Shown: in pieces, positions 2,356 through 56,133 of the stretch
How the letters are laid out: each line of letters starts with the position of its first letter
Numbering within the stretch: the first letter of the stretch is position 1
NCBI GenBank assembly: GCA_021831125.1
Contig: JAKBNI010000002.1
Span: forward strand, 1 to 60,338
DNA: 60,338 nucleotides
DNA from: Actinomycetes bacterium
GTDB lineage: Bacteria; Actinomycetota; Acidimicrobiia; Acidimicrobiales; RAAP-2
Reading direction: 5' to 3'
The notes under the pieces: model-generated
What the model saw: only the letters and a program-made list of their open reading frames with translations
Told to the model about the DNA's origin: nothing
Database searches by the model: none
Made by a program: the position numbers and the translations under genes

Positions 2356-3132
2356 ATGGAACTCTCGAACACCTCGGCCGTCGTCACCGGCGGCGCGTCG
2401 GGCCTCGGTGAGGCCACCGCGCGCGCGCTCGCGGCCCGGGGGGTCGCCGTCGTGGTGGCCGACCTCAACGACGGCGCCGGCGAGGCCCTGGCCAGCGAGA
2501 TCGGTGGGGCCTTCGCCCACTGCGACGTCACCGACCCCGACCAGGTCATCGCCGCGATCGAGGCCGGCCGGGCCCGCGGCCCCCTGCGCTCGGTCGTCAA
2601 CTGCGCCGGCATCGGCTGGGCGACCCGCACGATCGGCAAGGACGGCGAGTACGCCTCGGCCCACGACCTCGACCTCTACCGCAAGGTCATCGAGGTCAAC
2701 CTCGTGGGCACCTTCAACGTCTGCCGGCTCGCGGCGACCGCCATGAGCCACAACGAGCCCGACGCCGACGGCGGGCGCGGCGCGATCGTCAACACCGCCT
2801 CGGTGGCGGCCGAGGACGGCCAGATCGGCCAGGTCGCCTACTCCTCCTCCAAGGGCGGGGTCGTCGGGCTGACCCTGCCGCTCGCGCGCGACCTGGCCGT
2901 GGTGGGCATCCGGGTCAACACCATCCTGCCCGGGCTGATCGACACCCCGATCTACGGCTCGGGGCCGGCGAGCGAGGAGTTCAAGGCCCGCCTGGGCACC
3001 GGGGTCCTCTTCCCCAAGCGGCTCGGCCACAGCGAGGAGTTCGCCAGCCTGGCCGTGGAGCTCCTCGCCAACAGCTACATGAACGCCGAGTCCATCCGCC
3101 TCGACGCCGGCATCCGCATGCAGCCGAAGTAG
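2356..3132 (+). CDS. short-chain dehydrogenase/reductase, 3-hydroxyacyl-CoA dehydrogenase-like
   Basis: This 258-residue classical SDR has the nucleotide-binding [10 protein letters not shown] (residues 11-20), an acidic residue after the second strand (VVADLND, NAD preference), the structural NCAGIG and the catalytic Ser plus YSSSK. The [13 protein letters not shown] stretch and [15 protein letters not shown] resemble type II 3-hydroxyacyl-CoA dehydrogenases (HSD17B10-like), so a role in acyl-CoA oxidation is likely, but the substrate is inferred. GGAGG precedes the ATG by a few bases. The gene appears monocistronic. Confidence 0.8.
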
Positions 3133-3178
3133 CCCCTCGGGCCCGGGGACGAGGCGAGCGCGAGCGCACCCGCTGGTT

Positions 3179-3184
3179 TACGCT
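3179..3184 (+). promoter_or_regulatory. putative leaderless -10 element of the MarP-like gene
   Basis: TACGCT is followed by 6 nt (tcggcc) and the GTG start at 3191; there is no Shine-Dalgarno sequence. Confidence 0.5.
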
Positions 3185-3190
3185 TCGGCC

Positions 3191-4339
3191 GTGGACTGGT
3201 TCGACCTGATCATCGCCGTGCTGGTGCTCCTGGCCGCGATCACCGGCTGGGCCGACGGCGCCATCACCCGGGTGCTCCACGTGGCCGGCCTGGCCGTCGG
3301 GTTCTTCGCGATGGTGGCGCTCGCCCCCTCGCTCTCGAGCCGGATCACCCACGGGGTCGCGCGCCCGGTCGTGGCGCTCGTGATCGTGGGGGTCGGCACG
3401 GTGCTGTGCGGGGTCGCCGGGCGGGTGCTGGGCGGGTTCTTCTCCCGGGCCCTGCACACGATCCACTTGGGCGTCGTCGACCGGGTCGGCGGGGTGCTGG
3501 TGGGCGCCGCCTCGGCCCTCGTCGGCTGCTGGCTCATCGCCGGCCTGCTCGCCTCGACGACCTGGGGCTCGGTCGCCACCCAGGTCCAGGGCTCGGCGAT
3601 CCTGCGCGCGGTCGACGCGGTGATGCCGCCCCTGCCGGCGGTCGAGCAGCGGGTCCAGACGCTGCTGCGCCAGGCCGACCTCCCGGCGATCTTCGCCGAG
3701 GTCATCGCCCCGACGCTCACCCCGCCGCTGGCGCTCACCCGCCTGCCGGCCTCGCGCAGCCCGGTCGGGGGTCCCCCGGGCGTCGTGAAGGTCCTCGCGA
3801 CGGGGGGCTGCGCGGGCGCCTCGGAGGGCACCGCGTTCTACGTCCGGCCCGCGATCGCGGTGACCAACGCCCACGTCGTCGCGGGCCGCCGTCGCGTCAC
3901 CGTCGACGGCGCGCCGGCCACCGTCGTCGCCTACGACGCCACCGACGACCTCGCCCTCGTGCGGGTGTCGAGGGCCGGGGCGCCCCTGCCGCTCTCGAGC
4001 GCGGCCCCGGCCCGCGGCCAGCGCCTCGACGTGGTCGGCTTCCCGCTCGACGCCGCGCGCACCCTCACCCCGGCCTACATGGAGGGCCCCACCACCGCCC
4101 TCAGCCGTGACATCTACGGCGGCCACCTGCAGGCCCGCACCTTCTACGTGCTCGAGGCCCGCGTCGAGCCGGGCAACTCGGGCAGCCCGGTGCTCGCGGG
4201 TGGGCGGGCCGTGGCGGTCGTCGAGTCCATGTCGGCGAGCCAGCCGGCCACGGGCTACGCCATCCCGGTCTCGGTGCTGGCGCCCCTGCTCGCGCACGTG
4301 GGCACCCGGCCGGTCTCGACCGGCGCGTGCGTCAACTGA
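3191..4339 (+). CDS. MarP-like membrane serine protease (CvpA domain plus trypsin-like domain)
   Basis: The 382-residue protein has about four N-terminal membrane segments (residues 1-125) of the CvpA/colicin-V-production type, then an extracytoplasmic chymotrypsin-fold protease. The catalytic triad is seen as H228 in TNAHVV, D253 in DDLALV and S330 in EPGNSGSPV. Two cysteines of the protease domain are visible. This is the architecture of Mycobacterium MarP (Rv3671c), which protects against acid and oxidative stress by cleaving periplasmic targets. The same role here is inference. The start is GTG, probably leaderless. The 3' end overlaps the opposite-strand gene by 8 bp. Confidence 0.85.
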   Translation: MDWFDLIIAVLVLLAAITGWADGAITRVLHVAGLAVGFFAMVALAPSLSSRITHGVARPVVALVIVGVGTVLCGVAGRVLGGFFSRALHTIHLGVVDRVGGVLVGAASALVGCWLIAGLLASTTWGSVATQVQGSAILRAVDAVMPPLPAVEQRVQTLLRQADLPAIFAEVIAPTLTPPLALTRLPASRSPVGGPPGVVKVLATGGCAGASEGTAFYVRPAIAVTNAHVVAGRRRVTVDGAPATVVAYDATDDLALVRVSRAGAPLPLSSAAPARGQRLDVVGFPLDAARTLTPAYMEGPTTALSRDIYGGHLQARTFYVLEARVEPGNSGSPVLAGGRAVAVVESMSASQPATGYAIPVSVLAPLLAHVGTRPVSTGACVN

Positions 4340-4730
4340 GCGGGGGACCCCCCGGCGCCCGGCCGCTCCCGGCGCGCGCCCCGACGTGGGGTGAGCGCAC
4401 GACGTAGGTGGTGGGCGCCCACGAGCGCGGGACCGACCGGTACTCCCCGCGCCGCTCGAGGCGCGTGGCGCGGCGCCCGCGGGTGCCGCCGAGCACGGTC
4501 AGGCTGAGCCCGGCGGCGACGATCGCGAGGCCCACCACGAGGGTCAGGGCCGAGTGCAGGCAGCTCCCGGCGCCGCCGAGGTGCGCGCCCGAGGACGTGC
4601 AGGCGCCCGTCCCGCTGCCGCCCGCGACGATGACGGCGACGCCCGCCGCGACGCCGACGAGACCCGTCGCGACGGCGAGGAGGAGCGCGCGCGGGACCCG
4701 AGCGCGCGGCGGGTCCGAGTCCTGGCCCAT
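4332..4730 (-). CDS. small two-helix membrane protein, unknown function
   Basis: I place the start at ATG 4730 (MGQDSDPPRARVPRAL) because GGGGAGGG lies just upstream; the longer ORF start in the track lacks such a signal. The 132-residue product has two hydrophobic segments (LLLAVATGLVGVAAGVAVIV and ALTLVVGLAIVAAGLSLTVL) separated by a short loop with two cysteines (GTGACTSSG, GSCLHS), and a basic C-terminal tail. No family is recognised. It converges on the MarP-like gene with an 8-bp overlap. Confidence 0.5.
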   Translation of the reverse strand: MGQDSDPPRARVPRALLLAVATGLVGVAAGVAVIVAGGSGTGACTSSGAHLGGAGSCLHSALTLVVGLAIVAAGLSLTVLGGTRGRRATRLERRGEYRSVPRSWAPTTYVVRSPHVGARAGSGRAPGGPPLS

Positions 4731-52087: not shown

Positions 52088-52264
52088 GTCTGCCTCCCCG
52101 GGGTCGTCGACATCGCCGACGGGTCCGGAGACGACGCTACGCCCACGTCGTGACACCCCGGGTCGGCGACGTCTAACGCTAGGCCGCTCGCCGCGCTCGC
52201 GCGCGCCGGCTGGGTTGCGATCGTGTGACGGTGGGTTCTGGCGCGACGGGCCCGAACCGTGACC

Positions 52265-52270
52265 TAGCCT
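52265..52270 (+). promoter_or_regulatory. putative -10 element of the DUF885 gene
   Basis: TAGCCT would give a leader of about 20 nt that holds GGAG before the ATG at 52297. Confidence 0.35.
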
Positions 52271-52296
52271 CAAGTGACACCGTCGTGGAGGTCGCC

Positions 52297-53991
52297 ATGC
52301 CCGAGGTCCCGTCTCATCGAACCGAGGTCTTCGCGGTCGCCGACCGCTTCGTCGACGACTGGTGCGACCTGCACCCGATCGCCGCGACGTACTTCGGCGT
52401 CCCGGGCCACGACGCCGAGCTCGACGACTTCTCGCCGGCGGGAACGGACCGCTCGATCGAGCTCGTCGAGGCGGCCCTCGAGGCCCTCGCGGCGCTCGAG
52501 CCGGACGACGACGACGACCGCCTGGCCCTCGCGGTGGCGACCGAGCGGATGGCGAGCGGACGCGACCTCGATCGCGCCGGCGAGTCCGCGCGCGCCTTCG
52601 GGGTCATCTCGTCGCCGGCGATCGAGATCCGCCAGGTCTTCGAGATGATGTCGACCGACGACGCCGAGGGCGCCGACGCGGTGCGCGCACGCTTGGAGGC
52701 GGTGCCGCTCGCGCTCGCGCGCTGGCGCGAGACCCTCGAGGCGCAGATGTCCACGCGCCAGTGCGCGGCGCGGCGTCACGCGCTCGGCGTCGCGGCCCAG
52801 ATGCGCGAGGTCGCCGACGTCGGCTTCCCCGAGGTCGCCGCACGTGCGGCCCGGGCGGCCGGGGTCGATCCCGCGGGGCTCGAGGGTGCCGCCGCGGTGG
52901 CCGGGCGCGCCTTCAACGAGCTCGCGGGCTGGCTCGAGGGGACCTACGCGCCCGTCGCGGAGGAGTCCCCCTACGTCGGGCGCGAGCGCTACGCCCGGTG
53001 GGTCCGCCACTACACGGGCCTGGAGCTCGACCTCGAGGAGACCTACGCGTGGGGCTGGGAGGAGCTGACTCGCATCAACGCGCGCATGGACGGCCTCGCC
53101 GAGGTGCTCGCGCCGGGGGCCGCCTCACTGGTCGAGGTCGCCGAGCGTCTCGACCACGACCCCCGCTACGTGGTGCGCGGGACCGACGAGCTGCTCGCGC
53201 GCCTGCGCGCCTTCACCGACGCCACGGTGGAGCGGCTCGCCGGGCGAGAGTTCACCATCGACGAGCGGATCCGATTCTGCGACGTGCGCCTCGCCCCCGA
53301 GGGGTCGGCCGCCGCGCCCTACTACCTGCCCCCGAGCGAGGACCTGTCGCGCCCGGGCACGACCTGGTTCCCGACCCTCGGCAAGGAGGAGTTCGCCTGG
53401 TGGCGCCAGGTCACGACCTGGTACCACGAGGCCGTCCCGGGCCACCACCTCGAAGAGGGCACCATCGTGCTCAACGCCCACCGGCTCACCCGCTACCAGC
53501 GCCTCATGGCGTGGAACAGCGGCTGGGGGGAGGGCTGGGCCCTCTACGCCGAACGACTGATGGAGGAGCTGGGCGGCTTCGAGGAGCCGGCCTACGAGAT
53601 GGGCTACCTCATGAGCCAGGCCCTGCGGGCGGCGCGGGTCGTGGTGGACATCGGGCTGCACCTGCAGCTGCGCGCGCCCGCGGACTTCGGTCGCCTGGAG
53701 GGGCTGGGCGACGTCGGAGGAGCATCGTGGACGCCCGAGATGGCCGTCGCGACCCTCGTCGAGCGCGCCCTCGAGCCGCCGGATTTCGCCCAGAGCGAGG
53801 TCGAGCGCTACCTCGCGATCCCCGGCCAGGCGATCAGCTACAAGGTGGGTGAGCGCGAGTGGGTCGGGGCGCGCGAGGAGATGCGCGCCGCCCGCGGCGA
53901 CGGCTTCACCCTGCGTGGCTTCCACGATCGCGCGCTGGCCCTCGGGCCGATCGGCCTGGGCGCCTTCCGCGAGGCGCTGCGGCGGGGTTAG
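52297..53991 (+). CDS. DUF885-family protein, putative metallopeptidase
   Basis: I use ATG 52297 (MPEVPSHRTEVFAV), with GGAG 6 nt upstream. The 564-residue protein is mostly helical, has no signal peptide, and carries the DUF885 hallmark WYHEAVPGHHLEEGTI, a HExxxGHH-like variant of a zinc site, followed by WGEGWALYAERLMEELGGF. Members are thought to be M3-like carboxypeptidases or oligopeptidases, without proof here. Its stop overlaps the helicase stop in TTAG. Confidence 0.8.
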   Translation: MPEVPSHRTEVFAVADRFVDDWCDLHPIAATYFGVPGHDAELDDFSPAGTDRSIELVEAALEALAALEPDDDDDRLALAVATERMASGRDLDRAGESARAFGVISSPAIEIRQVFEMMSTDDAEGADAVRARLEAVPLALARWRETLEAQMSTRQCAARRHALGVAAQMREVADVGFPEVAARAARAAGVDPAGLEGAAAVAGRAFNELAGWLEGTYAPVAEESPYVGRERYARWVRHYTGLELDLEETYAWGWEELTRINARMDGLAEVLAPGAASLVEVAERLDHDPRYVVRGTDELLARLRAFTDATVERLAGREFTIDERIRFCDVRLAPEGSAAAPYYLPPSEDLSRPGTTWFPTLGKEEFAWWRQVTTWYHEAVPGHHLEEGTIVLNAHRLTRYQRLMAWNSGWGEGWALYAERLMEELGGFEEPAYEMGYLMSQALRAARVVVDIGLHLQLRAPADFGRLEGLGDVGGASWTPEMAVATLVERALEPPDFAQSEVERYLAIPGQAISYKVGEREWVGAREEMRAARGDGFTLRGFHDRALALGPIGLGAFREALRRG

Positions 53992-55460
53992 TCCCGACCG
54001 CGCGCGCCGACCAGGCGCACGTTACGCGCCTCGCGCCCGCGGGGCCCGCGGGCCTCGTCGAAGCGGATCCGCTGGCCCCTCGCGAGGGCGCGCTGGCCCG
54101 TGCCGGCGATCTGGGAGCGGTGCACGAAGAGGTCGTCGCCCGACTCGTCGGCGGCGAAGCCGTAGCCCCGCGCGCCGTTGTAGTTCGTGATGACGGCCTC
54201 ACGTGTGCCCGACGGTGACGCGCTCGGGCGCGGCGTGTCGCGCACCGCGCGCTCGCGCCGGGCCTGCGGGGCCGACGCGCGACGCTCGACGCGTGCGCGC
54301 GGCGACGACGGCGCCCCAGAGGGCGTGCGCGGCGTCGGGGTCACCGACCCGGTGGCGGCCTTCGGGGCGGTCGCGCCGGGCTCGAGGCCGAGGGAGCGCT
54401 GGATCTTGCGCACGTGGGCCGAGGTCTCGGGCGTCACGAGCGAGACCACGACGCCCGGCGCGCCGGCGCGCCCGGTACGCCCGGAACGGTGGACGTAGTC
54501 CGCGCTCTGGGTGGGCGGGTCGAAGTGGACGACGGCCGGCAGGGCCTCGACGTGGATGCCGCGGGCGGCGACGTCGGTGGCCACGAGGGCGCGGACCCGG
54601 CCGCCGGACATGTCCTTCAGCGCGCGGTCGCGCTGACCCTGGCTGCGCCCGCCGTGCAGCGCCACGGCGCTCACGCCGCGGTCGTTGAGCTGGCGCGCGA
54701 GCCGGTCGGCGCCGTGCTTGGTGCGGGTGAAGACGATGGCGCGCTCGTGCTCGTCGAGGAGCCGGACCGTCGCGTCCACGCGCTCGGCGTGGCCCACCGA
54801 GACGAAGTGGTGGTCGACCGGGACCTCCGCCACCGGGCCGACGACGTCGTGGCGCGCGGCGTCACGGGTGAAACTCGACACGAGCGAGGCGACCTCGGGA
54901 CCCATCGTCGCCGAGAAGAGCATCGTCTGAGGACCGGTGGCCACCTGGCCGAGGATCCGGCGCACGGCCGGGAGGAAGCCCATGTCGGCCATGCGGTCGG
55001 CCTCGTCGACGACGACCGTCTCGACGTCGCCGAGCGAGAGGGTGCCCTGGGCGAGGAGGTCCTCGAGGCGGCCGGGACAGGCGACCACGACGTCCACCCC
55101 GTGCGCGAGCGCCTTGCGGGCCGCGCCGTAGGGGGTGCCGCCGTAGACGCTGAGCACCCGGCGCGGGTCGCGCACGAGGGCCGCCAGCTCGCGCTGGACC
55201 TGGGCCGCGAGCTCGCGGGTGGGCGTGAGCACCAGGGCGCGCGGGCGGCGGGCCCGGGCCGGGGTGAGCCGGGCGAGCAGGGCGAGGCCGAAGGCCAGGG
55301 TCTTGCCCGAGCCCGTCGCGGCCTGGCCGACCACGTCGCGCCCGGCGAGGGCGTCGGGCAGGGCGGCGGCCTGGATGGGGAAGGCGTCGACGATCCCGCG
55401 TGAGGCGAGTCGCGTGACGAGCTCGGCGGGCACGCCGAGGTCGGCGAAGGTGGTGGTCAT
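53988..55460 (-). CDS. DEAD-box RNA helicase fused to a C-terminal cold-shock domain
   Basis: Residues 1-350 form a complete DEAD-box core: FPIQAAALP (Q motif), AATGSGKTLAF, PTRELAAQV, VVDEADRMADMGFLP, FSATM, VATDVAARGIHVE and YVHRSGRTGRAG. A Pro/Ser/Arg-rich linker (about 375-415) leads to a cold-shock domain: EAVITNYNGARGYGF (RNP1-like) and DDLFVHRSQIAGTG (RNP2-like), with RGQRIRFDEARGPRGREA. The ATG has GAGGAG upstream. RNA remodelling in the cold is likely; the fusion is unusual. Confidence 0.9.
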   Translation of the reverse strand: MTTTFADLGVPAELVTRLASRGIVDAFPIQAAALPDALAGRDVVGQAATGSGKTLAFGLALLARLTPARARRPRALVLTPTRELAAQVQRELAALVRDPRRVLSVYGGTPYGAARKALAHGVDVVVACPGRLEDLLAQGTLSLGDVETVVVDEADRMADMGFLPAVRRILGQVATGPQTMLFSATMGPEVASLVSSFTRDAARHDVVGPVAEVPVDHHFVSVGHAERVDATVRLLDEHERAIVFTRTKHGADRLARQLNDRGVSAVALHGGRSQGQRDRALKDMSGGRVRALVATDVAARGIHVEALPAVVHFDPPTQSADYVHRSGRTGRAGAPGVVVSLVTPETSAHVRKIQRSLGLEPGATAPKAATGSVTPTPRTPSGAPSSPRARVERRASAPQARRERAVRDTPRPSASPSGTREAVITNYNGARGYGFAADESGDDLFVHRSQIAGTGQRALARGQRIRFDEARGPRGREARNVRLVGARGRD

Positions 55461-55683
55461 GGTTCTCCTCAGGGTTGCGTGAAACCAACCCGAGGGATCC
55501 GAATCGGTCTCCGCCGCGGTCGCGGCGAGATGAGTAGGACCACCCTACCAGGCGCGCGACCGATCCCCGCCCGCCCGGGAGCGGGGTTGTGACGTTGGCC
55601 CCTAGGGGGGAGGGGGACGCCTCCTTAGCGTGAGGTGCGGCGGTGCGCCCGAGTGCTCCGCACCGCGTGAGAGTGAGGTGCCC
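55461..55683. promoter_or_regulatory. divergent spacer between DEAD-CSD helicase and hsp20
   Basis: The 223-bp gap has a 7-bp hairpin CGCCGCG-gt-CGCGGCG (55512-55527), GTAGG-accac-CCTAC (55534-55548) and a perfect palindrome CCCCTAGGGG (55599-55608). The helicase leader on the minus strand is long, as in cold-shock mRNAs. No promoter is firmly placed. Confidence 0.4.
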
Positions 55684-56133
55684 ATGGGTGACCTGAAGAC
55701 CATGAAGAGCGAGAAGCGCCTGCCGGAGGTGAGCCTCAGCTGGCCGTCGTGGCGGTGGTTCGACGACGTGTTCCGCGACGTCGACTGGCGTCCGGCGTTC
55801 CGCGTCGAGGAGTTCCAAGAGGGCGGCCAGATGGTGGTGCGCGCCGAGCTTCCGGGCATCGACCCGGACAAGGACGTCACGGTCGAGGTCGTCGACGGCG
55901 ACCTCGTCATCACCGCCGAGAAGCGCCACCACGAGGAGACGAACGAGCGCCACGTCCACCGCAGCGAGTTCCGCTACGGCATGCTGACGCGCAGCGTCGC
56001 CCTCCCCGAGGGCGTCGACGCGTCCAAGATCGAGGCGACCTACAAGGACGGGATCCTCGAGGTCCGCACGCCGATGCCCGAGACCCACAAAGAGGACGGC
56101 GCCGCGAGGAAGATCGCCATCCGCCGCGGGTGA
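55684..56133 (+). CDS. Hsp20/alpha-crystallin small heat-shock protein (second copy)
   Basis: The 149-residue protein has a Trp-rich N-terminus (SLSWPSWRWFDDVFRDVDW) and a full alpha-crystallin domain: MVVRAELPGIDPDKDVTVEV, VITAEKRHHEETNERHVHR, FRYGMLTRSVALPEGVD and KDGILEVRTPM. It is closer to classical Hsp18/HspX-type proteins than the copy at 48518. GTGAGG precedes the ATG. It lies divergent from the helicase. Confidence 0.93.
   Translation: MGDLKTMKSEKRLPEVSLSWPSWRWFDDVFRDVDWRPAFRVEEFQEGGQMVVRAELPGIDPDKDVTVEVVDGDLVITAEKRHHEETNERHVHRSEFRYGMLTRSVALPEGVDASKIEATYKDGILEVRTPMPETHKEDGAARKIAIRRG

Follow-up and report, generated by a model that had tools for sequence, protein, structure and literature searches.

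We identified a conserved, structured RNA leader of about 75 nt (55461–55535, minus strand) at the 5′ end of the mRNA for a DEAD-box RNA helicase fused to a cold-shock domain (CSD), in a 60,338-nucleotide stretch of an Acidimicrobiales genome assembly (hereafter, the window). The leader contains one nearly invariant strand with two alternative pairing partners. It lies just outside the coding sequence (53988–55460), to which the preliminary description was confined, and was absent from that description; of the two elements, the bistable leader is more novel than the fusion. On balance, we lean toward a reading in which an RhlE/CshA-like DEAD-box helicase, serving housekeeping or cold adaptation, carries a tethered RNA chaperone and has its synthesis controlled by the refolding of this leader. 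Leader and fusion belong to a largely uncultured group of actinobacteria, and the leader, if it switches, offers a compact 75-nt system for testing how cells sense their own RNA-folding capacity.

The leader was found by comparing the stretch upstream of the helicase start among relatives. A -10-like box (TAGGGT, 55542–55547, minus strand; CTGSTAGNGT is conserved in the genus) marks the putative helicase promoter, from which the extent of the leader was estimated. It is followed by a hairpin (P1), the conserved GGAGACCGATTCG, the nearly invariant TCGAGTTGG, and the ribosome-binding site GAGGAG (55465–55470, minus strand). No Rfam family matched the leader at gathering thresholds in the window, and none, the cspA thermoregulator among them, matched up to E = 1 within 55400–55720. 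Compared with the cspA leader, the one described here is about half as long and has different helices. A conserved upstream ORF within the leader was considered and dropped because, on inspection by eye, its GTG was absent in the window clade and its frame was inconsistent.

Using a covariance model of the leader, we obtained one certain match in the genome of the window, ahead of the window helicase, and matches in 87 of 99 genus genomes (55 of the 59 good ones), nearly always as a single copy. Relatives outside the genus also gave matches, with the helicase directly downstream wherever this was checked. When 298 genomes of the order were scanned, all matches above 27.2 bits directly preceded the helicase, as did one at 26.9 bits (L125), and the remaining matches did not precede it. 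A role for the leader ahead of other genes, as part of a wider regulon, is therefore not supported, since matches without the helicase were all weak (≤27.2 bits). Two genus genomes each had two strong leader matches, located on separate contigs (G016, C49 and C79; G423, C39 and C159), through either duplication or assembly redundancy.

The leader and the CSD are separable. Two leader-bearing loci (L151 and L152) encode a helicase without a CSD and with only a basic tail, while at least three good genus genomes (G442, G446, and G178) have a long-frame CSD and no detectable leader. The leader is thus not an obligate partner of the CSD, and the CSD would not be needed for a leader switch. The three genomes represent natural losses of the leader and would be useful for comparing regulation.

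Conserved base pairing was assessed for three helices, all on the minus strand. P1 (GCCGC..GCGGC, 55513–55526) is followed by an "anti" strand, GAGACCGATTCGG (55499–55511), a shared strand, TCGGGTTGGTTTC (55481–55493), whose core GTTGG is nearly invariant, and the sequence CAACCC (55472–55477). The shared strand forms the 3′ side of the helix P-alt with the anti strand, for which 13 pairs are possible in the window, and the 5′ side of the helix P2 with CAACCC, as seen in both the P2 alignment and the fold of the window leader. P1 was paired in 100% of cells across 47 distinct sequences, with 18 cells changed on both sides and compensatory changes at four of its five pairs. P-alt (GAGACCGATTCGA with TCGAGTTGGNCTC) was kept in 90% of cells, and so, in its own alignment, was P2 (GAGTTG of the shared strand with the CAACTC that immediately precedes the ribosome-binding site).

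For P1 and P-alt together, eight pairs were changed on both sides compared with 3.6 in shuffled alignments, a value reached in 0 of 500 shuffles, and 26 cells were doubly changed compared with 8.9; sliding the partner strand reduced pairing from 93% to 28–48%. P1 and P2 together gave five doubly changed pairs compared with 2.1 (1 of 500 shuffles) and 23 doubly changed cells compared with 4.0. Both sets of counts include P1 and come from alignments fitted to the structures, and so make the individual evidence for P-alt and for P2 look stronger than it is. With two-sided changes in excess of the shuffled and slid controls, we class the element as a conserved structured RNA leader. P1 supplies much of the double-change signal; in P-alt and P2, owing to their almost constant shared strand, most changes fall on one side of the helix. 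Taken alone, P2 is best illustrated by the window subclade, which has G-C at a pair that is A-U in the other leaders.

The near invariance of the shared strand could also have another cause, namely a protein-binding or sequence constraint. It is possible, although we consider it doubtful, that the leader is a protein-binding site whose invariant GAGTTGG strand is recognized by the helicase or its CSD, a cold-shock protein, or a ribosome-associated factor, with the alternative pairing being incidental. The GTTGG core is indeed invariant in nearly all leaders, and cold-shock proteins act on their own leaders elsewhere, Escherichia coli CspA being an example (PMC9947658). Such invariance, however, is also expected of a strand that pairs with two partners, and since the leader persists before CSD-less helicases, the CSD cannot be its required reader.

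P-alt and P2 share one strand and so cannot coexist, and folding predictions place them in a temporal order. For nascent transcripts ending at the shared strand, the mean predicted probability of P-alt at 37 °C was 0.87, exceeding 0.5 in 43 of 46 leaders; for the full leader, the mean predicted probability of P2 was 0.68, exceeding 0.5 in 35 of 46. The window leader was predicted to pass from P-alt (0.97) when nascent to P2 (0.91) at full length. When both states were forced, P2 was the more stable, its median advantage being 5.3 kcal/mol at 37 °C and 8.0 kcal/mol at 10 °C. The window leader folds 3.5 standard deviations better than its shuffles, with the ribosome-binding site paired; its P2 is extended by CCTC:GAGG (55492–55495 with 55467–55470), which covers that site. 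Across all leaders, a simple count found the ribosome-binding site about equally paired in the two states (0.67 versus 0.64). An on/off reading is accordingly sound, as far as predicted structures go, for the window and several other leaders, but not established for the set as a whole. The predicted balance between the states hardly shifted between 10 and 37 °C. A purely thermodynamic (equilibrium) thermometer is unsupported because, at each temperature examined, most leaders had P2 as their ground state.

These same properties bear on a simpler account, in which the helicase is an ordinary DEAD-box enzyme and the leader a constitutive structured 5′ UTR that does not switch, serving as an mRNA stabilizer or a ribosome stand-by element. 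This account would accommodate the far stronger support for P1 than for any other element, the stability of P2 in most leaders over the temperatures examined, and the small difference between states, across the set, in pairing of the ribosome-binding site. It leaves unexplained why diverged leaders preserve complementarity between the anti and shared strands and why P-alt is predicted in nearly all nascent transcripts (43 of 46), as a plain stabilizer would not need P-alt; we give it a minority share of our confidence. We prefer to treat the leader as a candidate translation switch, with cold and autoregulation as its putative signal.

The protein downstream of the leader is a complete 490-residue ORF with an ATG start (53988–55460, minus strand). 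Pfam assigned a DEAD domain (residues 28–190, 54891–55379; 151.7 bits against a cut-off of 26), a Helicase_C domain (residues 229–333, 54462–54776; 93.8 bits against 23.5), and a CSD (residues 422–483, 54012–54197; 51.4 bits against 27, E = 1e-13), all on the minus strand and all above cut-off, in agreement with the preliminary description of a DEAD-box core, a linker, and a CspA-like domain in one ORF. The DEAD domain contains motifs Q (FPIQ), I (ATGSGKT), Ia (PTREL), II (DEAD), and III (SAT), and Helicase_C contains motifs V (ATDVAARGIH) and VI (HRSGRTGR); these columns were invariant or nearly so in an alignment of relatives. The Pfam domains together with the full motif set place the protein among the DEAD-box RNA helicases of superfamily 2.

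The C-terminal 71 residues alone matched solved cold-shock proteins (3cam, 2lxj, and 1csp) down to E = 1.2e-12, and an AlphaFold2 model of the fusion, built on a 40-sequence alignment, showed a confident, ordered helicase part, a disordered stretch at residues 369–416 (pLDDT < 50), and a C-terminal domain of five strands (420–428, 433–437, 443–447, 464–472, and 475–483; pLDDT mostly >90). The C-terminal part thus scores as a CSD in Pfam and is predicted to adopt a five-stranded OB fold, as had been anticipated. The Pro/Ser/Arg linker between the two parts (residues 361–417, 54210–54380, minus strand) is disordered and evolves without constraint. Comparison of the window gene with four sister species gave pN/pS of 0.145–0.172 for the core, 0.123–0.285 for the CSD, and 1.08–1.29 for the linker. 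As the CSD is nearly as low as the core (mostly 0.12–0.17) and the linker is near neutral, the CSD is, by these sequence-based measures, a domain under selection, attached by a tether that is free to change, and not chance read-through. The original proposal that one polypeptide couples unwinding with RNA binding is therefore supported, at the level of its domains, by family, fold, and selection evidence.

The nucleic-acid-binding face of this CSD is derived. Both RNP-like motifs noted at the outset are present, RNP1 being intact in type (RGYGF); RNP2, which reads LFVHRS in the window CSD, has its F30 replaced by R, and the platform residues W8 and F38 are N and Q. At the eight positions that stack on nucleic acid in CspB-type proteins (Bacillus subtilis CspB numbering), the window subclade keeps five (F9 as Y, F15 as Y or F and as Y in the window itself, F17, F27, and H29) and has lost three (W8→N, F30→R, and F38→Q). 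The equivalents of K7, W8, F30, and F38 are T, N, R, and Q in five of five subclade members. Elsewhere in the alignment, an aromatic residue at W8 is retained by nearly all fused CSDs, F30 by most, and F38 by about half. In a genus-wide scan, the CSD scored about 55 bits in the window subclade compared with 70–75 bits for most of the genus.

The consistent substitutions in all five members and the lower scores would fit a degenerate CSD remnant, with the tail serving as a mere basic RNA tether. This seems unlikely to us because pN/pS for the CSD (0.12–0.29) is much like the value for the catalytic core, with the linker evolving almost neutrally, and because an OB fold is predicted with high confidence. 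Judging from its residues, the selected CSD probably binds RNA, with some uncertainty, and its binding is perhaps more electrostatic and less stacking in character.

The window helicase shares the core motif set of RhlE, CshA, and DbpA. Its best NCBIfam matches were DbpA, CshA, and RhlE-type models, all below their curated cut-offs (330 against 524 for DbpA and 322 against 646 for CshA), and it differs from these proteins in carrying a CSD as a C-terminal extension. With scores this far below the cut-offs, it is none of these named types. CsdA/DeaD proteins are likewise RNA helicases tied to cold adaptation with a C-terminal RNA-binding extension, in their case the DbpA-type RNA-binding domain PF03880 (PMC8190605), in place of which the window helicase has a CSD; membership was rejected because Pfam gave no PF03880 match in the window protein. 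The CSD itself resembles CspA and CspB in its OB fold with RNP1 and RNP2 (matches to 3cam and 1csp). Those proteins stand alone, while the window CSD is covalently fused to a helicase and has W8, F30, and F38 replaced in the subclade. Two stand-alone cold-shock protein copies are also present in the genome of the window, a MAG of 2.0 Mb that is 87% complete and has Acidimicrobiales/Acidimicrobiaceae MAGs as its closest named relatives.

The fusion had been put forward as unusual. It is ordinary within the genus and apparently undescribed in bacteria: we found no description of a bacterial DEAD–CSD fusion in the open-access literature, whose coverage here is incomplete, while in 57 of 60 genus genomes a CSD lies within an open frame of at least 500 codons, the helicase having been confirmed for the genomes whose loci were retrieved. 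The architecture recurs in the class: of 60 sampled Acidimicrobiia, 11, the window and G146 included, encode the helicase core and a CSD in one frame; outside the class, in a phylum sample of 42 genomes, none of the seven long-frame CSDs examined had a DEAD core in frame. Mapped onto a tree of 111 helicase cores, presence of the CSD calls for a minimum of five changes, and well-supported branches force no fewer than three of these; the CSD was thus gained or lost repeatedly.

In a well-supported separate clade, an RRM lies C-terminal to the helicase where the CSD would be (L066–L068, L071, L074, L077–L079, L084, L088, L089, L091, and L102; motif VYVANLPW...KGFGFVDM). These RRM-fused helicases of other Acidimicrobiia (L067, L068, L074, L077, and others) are related to the window helicase and have another type of single-strand RNA-binding domain in that position, and they differ also in their conserved leader. 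Seen upstream of L066–L068, L071, L078, L084, and L102, this leader (GAGCGAGACATCGGCATA ... CCCC..GGGG CCAGGAG) is a second candidate structured leader. Acidimicrobiia-like helicases were also found on MAGs labeled Acidobacteria and Dehalococcoidia (L068 and L085), owing to misbinning or transfer.

Helicases and RNA chaperones are usually regarded as partners in trans. The repeated attachment of a single-strand RNA-binding domain, a CSD or in another clade an RRM, at the same helicase position supports the idea that the two work on the same RNA. Independent hints that both proteins act on the same RNA come from stand-alone cold-shock protein genes near helicase genes, found in relatives without the fusion (L086, L108, L111, and L112) and in a large actinobacterial genome where a DEAD-box gene comes after a cold-shock protein frame (L136). 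In L112, the cold-shock protein gene (2947–3186) is directly upstream of the helicase gene (3190–4539) on the same strand. At one further locus (L141:1876), a stand-alone cold-shock protein gene lies just downstream of a helicase that is already CSD-fused.

Taken with the domain assignments, the predicted folding order suggests how the system might work. The helicase core would open short RNA duplexes with ATP, and the CSD, about 50 residues away on a flexible tether, would grip exposed single strands nearby, raising the local substrate concentration and slowing re-annealing. In the nascent leader, the anti strand would pair with the shared strand as P-alt; once the rest of the leader had been made, the shared strand would re-pair downstream as P2, which in the window would sequester the ribosome-binding site. 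The control point would be rate-limiting refolding from P-alt to P2. Two inputs appear likely: low temperature would slow refolding and trap P-alt, so that translation stays on, and the helicase would help the leader reach P2 and thereby shut off its own synthesis.

Leader control of a cold-shock RNA-binding protein has a precedent in E. coli cspA, where a cis-acting thermosensor in the mRNA governs its translation and CspA itself, at low temperature, promotes translation of the mRNA that encodes it, so that both act (PMC9947658). The likeness to the present leader is that of a cis element in the mRNA of a cold-shock protein, with control of translation described for cspA and proposed here. 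More speculatively, and with low confidence, we suggest that Acidimicrobiia possess in this leader a new class of RNA switch, acting co-transcriptionally and reporting the RNA-remodeling capacity of the cell: with helicase activity scarce, as in the cold, P-alt would be trapped and helicase made, and with activity sufficient, the helicase would refold its own leader to P2, which sequesters the ribosome-binding site. If true, the feedback would be direct, with an RNA helicase gauging its own activity from how its own mRNA folds.

On the other side of the leader lies a divergent hsp20 gene (55684–56133, plus strand; HSP20/alpha-crystallin family, Pfam HSP20), whose conserved start is the ATG at 55684, 223 bp from the helicase gene; the divergent arrangement given in the preliminary description is thus borne out. 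The further proposal made there, a pairing of cold- and heat-response genes across one promoter region, was rejected. Within the 223-bp intergenic region, the helicase leader and its -10-like box occupy one side and a separate conserved block (GGTTGTGACGTTNNCCCCTARGG) the hsp20 side, where intergenic comparison delimits GGTTGTGACGTTGGCCCCTAGGG (55585–55607, plus strand), probably the promoter of hsp20 itself. A single stress module of helicase and hsp20 with a shared control region could account for the divergent order being kept in all subclade loci covering it; we consider it very improbable, since hsp20 is a neighbor in the window subclade only and the order is absent from other genus loci, the two conserved promoter-like blocks are separated by a variable stretch, and no CIRCE or HAIR heat-shock operator was found between the genes. 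At its other end, the helicase gene overlaps a convergent DUF885 gene (52225–53991, plus strand) by 4 bp at the stop codons (53988–53991).
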